Source: Nitrosopumilus sp. BACL13 MAG-121220-bin23 (GTDB lineage: Archaea > Thermoproteota > Nitrososphaeria > Nitrososphaerales > Nitrosopumilaceae). Taken from it: DNA of 38,544 nt. The notes beneath the pieces were generated by a model. The model was given only the letters and a program-made list of their open reading frames with translations, ran no database searches and was not told the DNA's origin. Below are positions 21,113 through 26,859 of this stretch, piece by piece. Every line of letters begins with the position of its first letter. Position 1 is the stretch's first letter. The stretch spans positions 1-38,544 of the forward strand of contig LIAL01000002.1 of assembly GCA_001437625.1 (NCBI GenBank), in the 5' to 3' direction. The translations under genes were made by a program, and so were the position numbers.

Positions 21113-23149
21113 ATGAAATACTCTCTTCTTCTACTATCTTTGGTACTACTTGTAGGAATTTCTACTCCGGCATATGCTCAAACAATTACTGATCATGTGG
21201 TAATTAATGAAGTTGATACTAATCCTCCTGGTAATGACTCTGAATCTATTTCTGAATGGGTAGAGCTTTACAATCCTACTGACGGTGATATTGATTTGAG
21301 TGGTTGGAGTATTGCATCCACTACAGTATTGAAAAAAACATTAACAATTCCTGAAGGAACTATTATTTCTTCTGGAGATTTTTTAACATTTGTTAATCAA
21401 AAAGTTTGGTTTACTGATACTGCTGAATTAATTGAACTAAAAAATAGTGATGGACTATTAGTTGATAAAACTCGTGAAGTTTTTGATCTTGCAAATGATT
21501 TTAAATCTTGGCAACGAACTTATGATGGTTTTTCTGATTGGAAATTTGCACCTTCTACTGCAGGTAGTTCTAATGGAAAATTAATTGAATATTTTGATCC
21601 TTTAGCTGTTGTACTAACTCTCACATCTGATAAAATTTCATATGGGTTTGATGATACTGCAGTAATTCACGGAACTGTTTCTGAAAAAATTTTTGTTGAA
21701 AAACCTTATTTTCAACCTGAGCCAATTTTAATAACTATTGTTGGACCCAATTTTTATCACAATGTTTCACTTTATCCTGATTACAATCTAAATTATGAAA
21801 CAACTCTTAGAATATCCCAAATTCTAGGAGTTGGAGAGGGTAACTATGAGGTATCTGTTACTTATGATGATGTAGTTGCTACATCTACTTTTTCTGTCAA
21901 TTCTGATATTATTGAAGAAATTCAAGATGGTGATGATTCATTACTAACTATCATGACTGATGAGCCTGAATACATTCCAGGTCAATTAGTTGCTATTACT
22001 GGAAGTACGTCTGAAATTATTCCTTTTGAGAGTTTACAATTTACTATCTATGATTCTATTGGTAAATTGATTGCTAGTGGAAATTTATTTACATCTGACG
22101 GACAATTTCATACTAGTCTTTTTCTAACAACAGTAAATCCAAATTATGGTATTTACACTATTGACGTTGAATATGATAATGATGTTGCATCTTCCACTTT
22201 TAACGTAGTTGAAAATTTTATTGATGAATCAGAATCTGTCATTATTGTTTCAGACTCTATAATTTTTGATATTGATAAATCTAAATACTTTCTTAATGAC
22301 TACATGACTTTATCTGGAACTATTACTAATTTTGATTCTAGTAATAGTGTATACTATCAAGTTGTTTATTTTAATTTTTATACTTCTAATGGAATACCTA
22401 TAACTTTTCCAGGACATTTTGATGAAAATGATAATTGGGAATTATCTAATATAGATTTTAAGGCTACTTCTATTCCTGATGATTCAGGTGCATTCTCTGT
22501 TACAGTTAGAATTCCATTTAATACTTTTTCTGAAGGTGACTATGTTGTAAAAGCAAATTATGGTGGTCTTATTGCAAATGAATCTTTTTCTATCATACCT
22601 GGAACACATTCAATTGGTGAAAAACCCTCTGAGAAAAATCCAAATGCTTCTATTCCCGGTAAACCTTCTTCAACTGACGAAAAATTTGAAAATGTATATT
22701 TTACTTCCAATGTAAAAACAATTATTGAAAAAGTTAATCGTATTTCTGATAATTTAATATCTGTCACTACTCAGGAAAAAATAATTGATGAAGAATCTGT
22801 AAAACCTAGGGTATTATCTGGTTCTATGCTTACTATGTCCAGTGATAATCAGTCTGATGTTAATTTACGAGTTATGTCTGAATCTGGTATTTGTATAATT
22901 GGTACTTCTGATGAATGTCTAGTAAGTGAATCTACAAGAAAACCTGGTCAAATTTTTGAAGTAGTGCAAATTGATGGATTAAATCTTAATGTACGTTATT
23001 CTGGTCCTGATGTTCGTTTAGAGAAATTTAGTATTCTTCCTACATCTTCTGATGAATTTCTTCCTAATACTAATTGGAATGTTGAAGTGATTAAGACTGA
23101 TGAAATTTCAAGACTTTATTATAAAATTACTTACAAAACTTTCGAGTAA
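21113..23149 (+). CDS. Secreted lamin-tail-domain (LTD) surface protein
   Basis: 678 aa; signal peptide, 'DHVVINEVDTNPPGNDSESISEWVELYNPTDGDIDLSGWSI', then repeated beta-sandwich-like segments. Confidence 0.85.
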   Translation: MKYSLLLLSLVLLVGISTPAYAQTITDHVVINEVDTNPPGNDSESISEWVELYNPTDGDIDLSGWSIASTTVLKKTLTIPEGTIISSGDFLTFVNQKVWFTDTAELIELKNSDGLLVDKTREVFDLANDFKSWQRTYDGFSDWKFAPSTAGSSNGKLIEYFDPLAVVLTLTSDKISYGFDDTAVIHGTVSEKIFVEKPYFQPEPILITIVGPNFYHNVSLYPDYNLNYETTLRISQILGVGEGNYEVSVTYDDVVATSTFSVNSDIIEEIQDGDDSLLTIMTDEPEYIPGQLVAITGSTSEIIPFESLQFTIYDSIGKLIASGNLFTSDGQFHTSLFLTTVNPNYGIYTIDVEYDNDVASSTFNVVENFIDESESVIIVSDSIIFDIDKSKYFLNDYMTLSGTITNFDSSNSVYYQVVYFNFYTSNGIPITFPGHFDENDNWELSNIDFKATSIPDDSGAFSVTVRIPFNTFSEGDYVVKANYGGLIANESFSIIPGTHSIGEKPSEKNPNASIPGKPSSTDEKFENVYFTSNVKTIIEKVNRISDNLISVTTQEKIIDEESVKPRVLSGSMLTMSSDNQSDVNLRVMSESGICIIGTSDECLVSESTRKPGQIFEVVQIDGLNLNVRYSGPDVRLEKFSILPTSSDEFLPNTNWNVEVIKTDEISRLYYKITYKTFE

Positions 23150-23183
23150 ATTCAAAATACTGCTAAATTAATGCTTGATTAAA

Positions 23184-23675
23184 TTGAAATTACAAGTTTT
23201 AATGTTCTATCAAGACGATCCAAAAAAATGCACTGCTGCAAAAATGGTAAAGTTTGGTCTTGCTAAAAATATAAAAAAAATTGGCTCAAGGGGATTAGTT
23301 TTAGATCCTTTTTCAGAAAAAACATTACTTCCAAAAGATAAGTCTGTGATTAATTCTATTGTTGGTATTGACTGTTCTTGGAATCTTGCAGATCATGCTT
23401 TTTCTCAAAAATTTAACGGTATCAAAAGAAAGTTACCTCCATTGTTTGCTGGAAACCCTGTAAATTATTCTAAATTAAATAAACTAACTACTGCCGAAGC
23501 CCTGTCTGGCTCATTATTTATTCTTGGTTTTAAAGAACAAGCTTTGGAATTATTAAATAAATTCAAGTGGGGTCATACTTTTTATGAATTAAATCAAAAT
23601 CTTTTAAATGATTATTCTAACGCTGAAAACGAGGAACAAATTCAAACTATTCTTGACGATTACGGTTTACTTTGA
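23184..23675 (+). CDS. tsr3: Tsr3/DUF367-like rRNA aminocarboxypropyltransferase
   Basis: 'DDPKKCTAAKMVKFGLAKNI...LDPFSEKTLLPKD...IVGIDCSWNLADHAF...RKLPPLFAGNPVNYSKLNKLTTAEALSGSLFILGF'. Track start is TTG 23175; TTG 23184 gives MKLQVLMFYQDD. Confidence 0.9.
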   Translation: MKLQVLMFYQDDPKKCTAAKMVKFGLAKNIKKIGSRGLVLDPFSEKTLLPKDKSVINSIVGIDCSWNLADHAFSQKFNGIKRKLPPLFAGNPVNYSKLNKLTTAEALSGSLFILGFKEQALELLNKFKWGHTFYELNQNLLNDYSNAENEEQIQTILDDYGLL

Positions 23676-26124
23676 TTTTTGCGTATGTGATAACTCCTAT
23701 GATTACTATGATTAGTATAGATGGGATCATCCATGTGTTGTGATTTATTTTATTTTCAATATTTGATATGCTTATCATTGCACTAGGTAATTCCACATTA
23801 TTTTTACTAATTAGAAAACTTGATTCATAGAAATCTGGTTTTAAAACTGAATTTGAAATTGCAAATACTTTGATACTGTTTGCCCCTGGTTGCAATTTTT
23901 CTGTTATCTCTGATGTTATTTCTATGGTAACCTTATTTTCTTTAACATTTAATTTTTCTGAGGCTTGAATATTCCCTTTACTATCCATTAAAAAATATAA
24001 TATTGAATCTGTGTTTTCTGCTTCAATTAAAATATCTGTACTCTCTCCATATTGAATTATTTTATCCATATCAATTTTTTTAATAATTGGAAATTGCACG
24101 TTCTCAAACTCTGACCATTTACCAATTTTAAATGGATATGATTCATCATCAAATGCTTTTACTATGATTGTCCTTGATTCTGGGGAATATGATTCCAAAT
24201 AAAATGGACCGTTACTAATTACGGCATGATTATTTTCTTCAATCCATTTAATTGATGATTCATATCTATTTTCATAATATCGCTGTGTGTTTTCATTTTG
24301 TTTTAATGAGTTTGGAATGAATTCTTTATTTTTATATTCTTGCAGATTCTCTTTAATTATTTCTGCATCTTTTGGAACAATTAATGATAACCAATTAACA
24401 CTCTTAGCTGTAGCTCCTGATCTTGAAAATGATACCTTTCCATCCATTACTGCTTTTTCCATAGATGATGTTATTTCCCATGGAATTGGGCTCCATAAAG
24501 CAGCCCACTCTGCAATTTCATTTTCATCAAAATGCCAATAATCTACATATACTTCAATAGTATCGCTATCAATTTGATTTATCCCTATGATTGTCTGAAT
24601 ACTTTGCGCTGCTCTTGGTGTAAACTCTGTATCAAATGTTTTATCATTTGCACCATTTTGTGTTCCCCACTCGATTGTAAAATACAATGAATGCAAAATA
24701 TCATTCATATCCATTGACTGTCCATTATGCCAATTACTAAATTTAAAATCAAATGTTACCTTACTTGTTGCAAGTGTGTTTGTTGGAACATTGTTCCATT
24801 TTTGTGATGTTGGATCCCACATTTTAGCCTCAATTGGAACTTCAATCTTTTGATTTAATCCTAATGTTTCAACTTCCCACTGCGCTCTAACTGGAAATGT
24901 TTCTCCTGTAAATGGGTGCTTGAATGTTACAGGGTCTGAAATTATTCCCCAGATTTGTCTACTGTATGTATCTGTTAAACCCATCACTGGATTCCATGCT
25001 CCTTGATAAATTTGCTTTACAGCAATTACTAATTCGTTATCATTATTTTTTGCATTAATTGGAGTGAATCTACTTGGAACCCCAGCTCCTAAATCATTAA
25101 TCACTCCTTCTACATTTTGATTTACAACATATTGATCAATTTTACTTGCTAGAAAAATTCTCACTGATTCATTAATTCCTTCTACCACTGCTTCTTGAAT
25201 TAATTGCGTTCTTTTTTCTGATGTTTCAAAACTTCCTTTGTATATTTCTTGAGTTAACTCATCTAATTTTTTATTTTCATAATTCCAATATGTCGGGTCG
25301 TTAAACCCTGGCATATTTGAAAACCATGGTGAATACATTTGACTTAGTCCTATTGAATCATATTTTACAAATGCAGAGCGCCCCCATCCTTCTGTGTATA
25401 AATTCCATTTTGAATCTGCTGGATTTGATCCATAAACTACAACAAATGCTTTATTCAAATCACCATAGTCTTTTTTTACTGTAAATCCCATATTTTCTAA
25501 TTCTGCTGATAATATCTCTCCAATTGACTTTCTAACTGGATCATCACTTCGAATAAAAATTGTTATTTGAATTTCATCATCTTCAATTTTCCATTTATTA
25601 TCAATTTTTACTGCACCACGCTCCACCAGTGACTCTGAAATAATCTCTTCAGCTAATGTTGGATTGTATTTAAAATTGAATGATTCTAATTGTTTTATTA
25701 TTGTAAGATACTCTGGATCTGTTGGTCCATAGTATGAAATAATTGGAGATCCATATCCTCCCATCAATTCATTAACAATCATTTTTCTATCTACTAAGTA
25801 GTTCAAGGCAAATCTGGCGTCTTTACTTGAAAATGGATTAAATTTTTCTGATTCTGCTGGATTCACCAATATGCTGTATGATCCTCCTGTGGAATCAAAA
25901 ACTTTCAACCCCTCCCTTGACTGATTGCTTTCTAACCTATCTGATGAAATTCTATAATAATACATGTCAAGATTACCATTTCTTACTTCTTCTAATGCTG
26001 TATTTTCATCTAAATACTGAATAAATTTTATTGAATCTACAAAAGTATTTTTTTCTGCAAATACTTCATTATGTGTTATTACTATAATTGAAAGAGCTAG
26101 TATGATTACTAGCATTTTTTTCAT
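23647..26124 (-). CDS. Family-5 extracellular solute-binding protein, C-terminally membrane anchored
   Basis: 825 aa; signal peptide, SBP_bac_5-type segments, C-terminal TM 'MIPSILIIVIIGVITYAKIK'; segment order appears permuted (see findings). Confidence 0.85.
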   Translation of the reverse strand: MKKMLVIILALSIIVITHNEVFAEKNTFVDSIKFIQYLDENTALEEVRNGNLDMYYYRISSDRLESNQSREGLKVFDSTGGSYSILVNPAESEKFNPFSSKDARFALNYLVDRKMIVNELMGGYGSPIISYYGPTDPEYLTIIKQLESFNFKYNPTLAEEIISESLVERGAVKIDNKWKIEDDEIQITIFIRSDDPVRKSIGEILSAELENMGFTVKKDYGDLNKAFVVVYGSNPADSKWNLYTEGWGRSAFVKYDSIGLSQMYSPWFSNMPGFNDPTYWNYENKKLDELTQEIYKGSFETSEKRTQLIQEAVVEGINESVRIFLASKIDQYVVNQNVEGVINDLGAGVPSRFTPINAKNNDNELVIAVKQIYQGAWNPVMGLTDTYSRQIWGIISDPVTFKHPFTGETFPVRAQWEVETLGLNQKIEVPIEAKMWDPTSQKWNNVPTNTLATSKVTFDFKFSNWHNGQSMDMNDILHSLYFTIEWGTQNGANDKTFDTEFTPRAAQSIQTIIGINQIDSDTIEVYVDYWHFDENEIAEWAALWSPIPWEITSSMEKAVMDGKVSFSRSGATAKSVNWLSLIVPKDAEIIKENLQEYKNKEFIPNSLKQNENTQRYYENRYESSIKWIEENNHAVISNGPFYLESYSPESRTIIVKAFDDESYPFKIGKWSEFENVQFPIIKKIDMDKIIQYGESTDILIEAENTDSILYFLMDSKGNIQASEKLNVKENKVTIEITSEITEKLQPGANSIKVFAISNSVLKPDFYESSFLISKNNVELPSAMISISNIENKINHNTWMIPSILIIVIIGVITYAKIKVNRNRQE

Positions 26125-26223: not shown

Positions 26224-26859
26224 TTGAAAATTTATCCCAAAATGATTACCAGTTTAAATGGAATAATTCAAGGCGGTGTATCTGTCAAGGATTTTTCTAC
26301 TGTTACTGAAATTAATCTAAATGACTCTAAAGATATTTTAAATAATTTCATCGATAATGGAATTGGAACACTAACAGACGATTTCTATTATTTTGAAGCC
26401 GGTGATAAATTAAAAATTGCGATTTCCTTCCTTCAACATGGGTTACCTTTAGATGAAATTTCAATTGCATTGGATTGGAGAGATTTTGAAGGTTTAACTG
26501 CTGAAATTTTATTTTCAAAAAATTTTGCTGTGATTAAAAATTTAATGCTAACAAAACCTAGGATGGAGATTGATGTTGTTGGAATTCGTTTAGGTATTGC
26601 GATATTAATTGATTGTAAGCATTGGAAAACATATAGTCAATCATCCTTGTCATCTGCTGTCCAAAAACAAATTGAAAGAACCAAACAGTACGTTGCTAAA
26701 ACTCCTGGTTCTACTGCTGTACCTGTTATTGTCACTTTACATCAAGATAAAATTAACTTTGTTGATAAAGTTCCAATTGTACCTATTTTTCAATTTGCTT
26801 CATTTATTGATGAATTTTATGGTAATGTTGATCAAATGAAAACTATAGGAACAGACTAG
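26224..26859 (+). CDS. Orphan PD-(D/E)XK (Mrr-like) nuclease with N-terminal wHTH-like region
   Basis: 211 aa, TTG start; 'WRDFEGLTAEILFSKNFAVIKNLMLTKPRMEIDVVGIRLGIAILIDCKHWK' contains E..D..(D)xK core. Confidence 0.75.
   Translation: MKIYPKMITSLNGIIQGGVSVKDFSTVTEINLNDSKDILNNFIDNGIGTLTDDFYYFEAGDKLKIAISFLQHGLPLDEISIALDWRDFEGLTAEILFSKNFAVIKNLMLTKPRMEIDVVGIRLGIAILIDCKHWKTYSQSSLSSAVQKQIERTKQYVAKTPGSTAVPVIVTLHQDKINFVDKVPIVPIFQFASFIDEFYGNVDQMKTIGTD

Follow-up and report, generated by a model that had tools for sequence, protein, structure and literature searches.

Circular permutation of a family-5 solute-binding protein in Nitrosopumilus and across its phylum

The open reading frame (ORF) at 23647–26124 of the window—the whole 38,544-nucleotide stretch of Nitrosopumilus DNA that was analysed—is, as judged from its sequence, a circular permutation of one family-5 solute-binding protein (SBP), in which the half that is C-terminal in canonical relatives (block B) precedes the half that is N-terminal (block A). 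The permutation is genuine, old, and present in nearly every sampled group of the phylum. Very probably, the product is the membrane-tethered receptor of an OppABCDF-type oligopeptide importer, the old termini having been joined and a surface loop of lobe I opened in this permuted form.

Order of the two halves and layout of the chain

A preliminary description of this DNA had placed the R-lobe first and the SNGPFYL block second, an order that was confirmed by phmmer, by Pfam, and by a profile of relatives. In a phmmer search against the PDB, residues 29–284 of the window protein match residues 323–602 of 7fi3_A, the OppA of Thermococcus kodakarensis (TkOppA), with an i-E of 5.4e-19 and 71.1 bits, and residues 370–663 match residues 17–309 of the same chain with an i-E of 7.4e-30 and 107.0 bits. 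The score against the Pfam family SBP_bac_5 (PF00496) is 93.1 bits at a curated gathering cut-off of 32.4, which makes the protein a member of this family. The match falls into two stretches, residues 14–251 corresponding to profile positions 132–350 and residues from about 464 to 660 corresponding to positions 28–139, so that the halves do not follow the canonical linear order and the protein ranks as a circularly permuted variant rather than an ordinary member. Domains in normal order, the finding that would contradict a permutation, were looked for by domain search, and the swapped order was seen instead. When 7fi3 was placed on a profile built from 14 relatives, its residues 18–309 fell on profile positions 385–675 and its residues 313–591 on positions 31–285, while a weak third match (domain E 0.094) placed residues 671–722 on positions 320–371. 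These placements bracket both cut points and show the two former termini connected through a short linker; the gap between the block matches at this joint measures 8–31 residues across relatives. The new chain ends lie near TkOppA residues 310–313, in the TkOppA loop after 'GPYYVDEY...VRIKKF'. In the window protein, the chain is opened in a lobe-I loop after 'GPFYL...IIVKAF' and before the 'VDSIKFIQY' strand.

When the sequence was un-permuted by placing A before B, 7fi3 was matched in a single collinear alignment (chain 18–602, 184.3 bits) and SBP_bac_5 in a single stretch (profile 28–350, 101.8 bits), block A alone covering profile positions 28–139 and block B alone positions 148–350. Rotation thus restores collinearity with a canonical homologue, the property by which a natural circular permutant is recognised. 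Although the B-then-A order could also result if half-SBPs of two different paralogues had been fused, the distances among homologues measured on A and on B are strongly correlated (Mantel r 0.85, with 0 of 2000 permutations as high), and this shared evolutionary history argues for the rearrangement of one protein rather than the fusion of two unrelated half-genes. Moreover, TkOppA is the closest solved protein of both blocks, at about 27% and 28% identity, and the joints sit at the canonical termini and in one loop, with collinearity fully restored by rotation. A paralogue chimera was rejected on account of these congruent halves and is considered very unlikely. The circular permutation proposed in the preliminary description is supported by the restored collinearity, by the congruent histories of A and B, and by the phylum-wide order.

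Table 1. Positions of the SBP gene, its parts, and its neighbours in the window
Feature	Position	Strand	Details
Circularly permuted family-5 solute-binding protein (OppA-like) ORF	23647..26124	(-)	825 aa; ATG at 26124, stop at 23647
Signal-peptide-like N-terminal segment, residues 1–24 (MKKMLVIILALSIIVITHNEVFAE)	26053..26124	(-)	hydropathy peak at residues 1–19
Block B, residues 25–359	25048..26052	(-)	equivalent to canonical C-terminal half (TkOppA about 313–722); motifs ALNYLVDR, YTEGW
Joint of old C-terminus and old N-terminus, residues 360–366	25027..25047	(-)	from profile matches and hydropathy
Block A, residues 367–675	24100..25026	(-)	equivalent to canonical N-terminal half (TkOppA 17–309); motifs WNP..DTYSR, NWHNGQ, SNGPFYL
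Beta-rich domain, residues about 676–775	23800..24099	(-)	AF2 model: 8 strands, pLDDT mostly 76–92
C-terminal transmembrane anchor, residues about 796–820, then basic tail	23665..23739	(-)	from hydropathy and AF2
Tsr3-type ribosome biogenesis gene (Ribo_biogen_C)	23175..23675	(+)	3′ end overlaps that of the SBP gene by 29 bp
Conserved neighbour	26224..26859	(+)	211 aa; no Pfam match at E 0.01
Secreted-looking protein	21113..23149	(+)	678 aa; N-terminal lamin tail domain (LTD), weak MG2 match

From its N-terminus, the chain consists of a signal-like segment, block B, a linker, block A, a beta-rich domain, a further linker, and a C-terminal membrane helix (Table 1). The N-terminal segment presumably directs secretion of the product. 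Located between the SBP part and the C-terminal transmembrane (TM) segment, the beta-rich domain of ~100 residues does not appear in the preliminary description; the AF2 model suggests that it is probably an Ig-like spacer, and Pfam returns a weak FlgD_ig match to the equivalent region of one relative. The C-terminal TM segment had been noted earlier and is indeed present, as a hydrophobic peak at residues 799–817 and as an AF2 helix at residues 796–824. In a hydropathy scan of 83 ORFs, a count that includes loci fetched twice, hydrophobic segments were found at the N-terminus in 80 and at the C-terminus in 79. The AF2 model of the entire protein is of moderate confidence (mean pLDDT 71.9, pTM 0.67). 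Its top Foldseek matches are 7fi3 and bacterial SBP_bac_5-type proteins, with about half of the chain aligned; the match to 7fi3 extends over 386 columns at a TM of 0.32–0.36, a partial alignment of the kind expected when a sequential aligner is applied to a permuted fold. The whole protein would be expected to fold as one canonical two-lobed clamp.

Distribution and history of the permuted order

The permuted protein is present in 273 of the 330 genomes of the class, many of which are closed, the named close relatives being Nitrosopumilus and its kin. A profile search of the phylum matched 301 of 397 genomes, many of the weak matches being ordinary SBP_bac_5 proteins. With block order called by separate A and B profiles and loci fetched twice removed, the B-then-A order was seen, in one frame, in 69 distinct ORFs, which represent more than 40 family-level groups of the phylum. 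The A-then-B order was found in only two ORFs (L221:6179-8863 and L234:5464-8157, from genomes G381 and G443), both belonging to family f44. Whether thaumarchaeal paralogues share the swapped order had been raised as a check in the preliminary description; they do share it, and so do most of the other phylum members that were examined. An artefact of assembly or annotation, such as a mis-joined contig or two adjacent half-genes, might be suspected in a source assembly of 183 contigs, but the one-frame B–A order recurs in closed single-contig genomes (e.g., G006, G007, G012, and G021) and throughout the phylum. Since independent closed genomes carry this order, the artefact was rejected and is hardly conceivable.

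Two fragmentary genomes without the SBP (G180 and G222) have a contig end beside the conserved DUF2070 neighbour. In the closed genome G168, OppB is present and neither the SBP nor the DUF2070 gene was detected, which is possibly the result of a deletion. A search for plasmid-borne relatives of the permuted SBP found none. Between positions 67 and 68 of block B, roughly 25–60 extra residues occur in a subset of lineages (loci L200, L201, L202, L204, L225, and others), and the f44 proteins of canonical order show such residues too.

The permutation appears to date from the base of the phylum or close to it, and tandem duplication followed by trimming may have produced it. A tree was built from 42 sequences with A and B concatenated. 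Its best topology places the f44 proteins, with their canonical order, within a subclade of permuted ones (SH-aLRT 99), and at least two order changes are needed. We tentatively propose, at somewhat less than even probability, that the Opp receptor was permuted once, at the phylum's base, that this form then became standard, and that f44 was later re-permuted to the canonical order. A different history, in which the permuted order arose once and f44 retains the older state, is given room by the AU test, in which a tree holding the canonical sequences together was not rejected (p 0.098), so that f44 could have branched before a single permutation. However, the nesting of f44 in the best tree and an insert-like stretch common to f44 and its permuted neighbour L225 speak against this retention, which is regarded as only slightly less probable than the re-permutation. 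If f44 was indeed re-permuted, nature would have run an experiment in protein topology first forwards and then backwards, and the point at which the tether exits the clamp relative to the permease would be a possible driver of the order changes.

Genomic context and proposed role

Of 34 neighbourhoods of the SBP gene, 29 have OppB beside or near it, usually along with OppC, OppD, and OppF in an oppABCDF cluster. The lack of adjacent permease and ATPase genes noted in the preliminary description holds for this window and fails for most relatives. In the source genome, the opp genes are scattered over four contigs, with OppB–OppC (recognised by Pfam) on C12, OppD on C68, OppF on C52, and the SBP on C2; the OppD and OppF ATPases both carry the oligo_HPY domain. 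A search of this genome for a second SBP_bac_5 protein found none besides the window protein. In closed relatives, oppA and oppB lie far apart (at 846,566 and 529,899 in G006, for example), and among the closed-genome family relatives examined the permuted protein is the sole SBP_bac_5 in all but G168, which has none. In a sister genus of the same family (G226 and G227), the permuted SBP adjoins oppB. The permuted protein is thus encoded with, or is the sole partner of, OppB/OppC/OppD/OppF, as is characteristic of an Opp/Dpp receptor.

In the 455-aa OppC of the source genome (L022:116-1480 on contig C12), the N-terminal TM segment is separated from the permease domain by about 200 residues, which probably form an ectodomain. 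Similarly long OppC proteins occur in most relatives, including one of 500 aa encoded beside the canonical-order OppA in L221, and OppC length therefore does not track the permutation. In the lineage of the window, the SBP gene is flanked on one side by the Tsr3-type gene and on the other by a small conserved ORF and then a DUF2070 gene; of 80 named loci of Nitrosopumilaceae type, most keep this arrangement. The Tsr3-type gene is convergent with the SBP gene, as it is within 250 bp in 69 of 80 related loci. The gene for the secreted-looking protein listed in Table 1 lies beside this housekeeping gene.

The most likely role of the window protein is that of receptor for the sole Opp importer of the source genome. 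After export by its N-terminal signal, the chain would adopt the two-lobed clamp fold typical of Cluster C, with its connectivity re-routed, and would be tethered to the cell surface by the beta-rich spacer and the C-terminal membrane helix. A peptide, or some other oligomeric ligand, would be captured as the clamp closes and then passed on to OppBC, with OppD and OppF driving the transfer. In Nitrosopumilus, the opp genes would since have been scattered to at least four places, and with their dispersal the SBP stands alone. A peptide substrate is suggested by the family and by analogy with TkOppA. Uptake of oligo- and dipeptides by ammonia-oxidising thaumarchaea has been inferred from genome content, in an account that, where it deals with this uptake, does not comment on topology (PMC6790972).

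In the Nitrosopumilus lineage, the SBP gene is unlinked to the opp genes, its neighbours are unrelated genes kept in most of the 80 loci, and the protein is anchored by a spacer and a TM segment, all of which would also fit a stand-alone surface receptor, adhesin, or sensor whose transporter role has been lost in Nitrosopumilus. Against this reading, the source genome retains OppB, OppC, OppD, and OppF and has no other SBP_bac_5, the sister genus keeps the SBP beside oppB, and the opp operon is kept in most other lineages. A receptor without a transporter is disfavoured by this sole-SBP status and by the operons of the relatives, and is thought unlikely. As the receptor of an importer, the window protein is likely the binding component of the one Opp system that its source Nitrosopumilus-type genome was found to encode, and it bears on the acquisition of organic nitrogen by ammonia oxidisers.

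Comparison with known solute-binding proteins

The closest solved relative, by both sequence and fold search, is TkOppA (7fi3), an archaeal OppA with an endogenous pentapeptide. Both halves of the two proteins are homologous, at about 27–28% identity. TkOppA has the A-then-B order; in the window protein, B comes before A, and a beta-rich domain separates the SBP part from the C-terminal TM segment. PF00496 is likewise shared with the bacterial Cluster C SBPs of the DppA/OppA/NikA type. In contrast to these, the Pfam stretches of the window protein are reversed and merge only after un-permuting; the permutation accounts for the two broken SBP fragments that appear in domain searches.

Few transporter receptors have been described as natural circular permutants. 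No report of a permuted family-5 SBP was found in the literature searched, subscription literature lying outside its scope, and the family-5 permutation is apparently unreported; the only natural permuted SBP encountered in that literature is TpMglB-2 (Tp0684) of Treponema pallidum. In this glucose-binding protein, the first three strands of the N-lobe have been moved to the C-terminal end, and its authors propose the sub-class 'Type Ic / Cluster Bc' and regard membrane tethering as a possible driver of the permutation (PMC4990184). Like TpMglB-2, the window protein is a naturally permuted, membrane-tethered ABC solute-binding protein. Despite this likeness, TpMglB-2 is a Cluster B (type I) sugar binder and differs from the window protein in SBP class, in breakpoint, and in domain of life. 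With the permutation fixed in most sampled families of the phylum, and with many canonical structures of this SBP class solved, the effect of tether position and connectivity on receptor–permease docking becomes testable.
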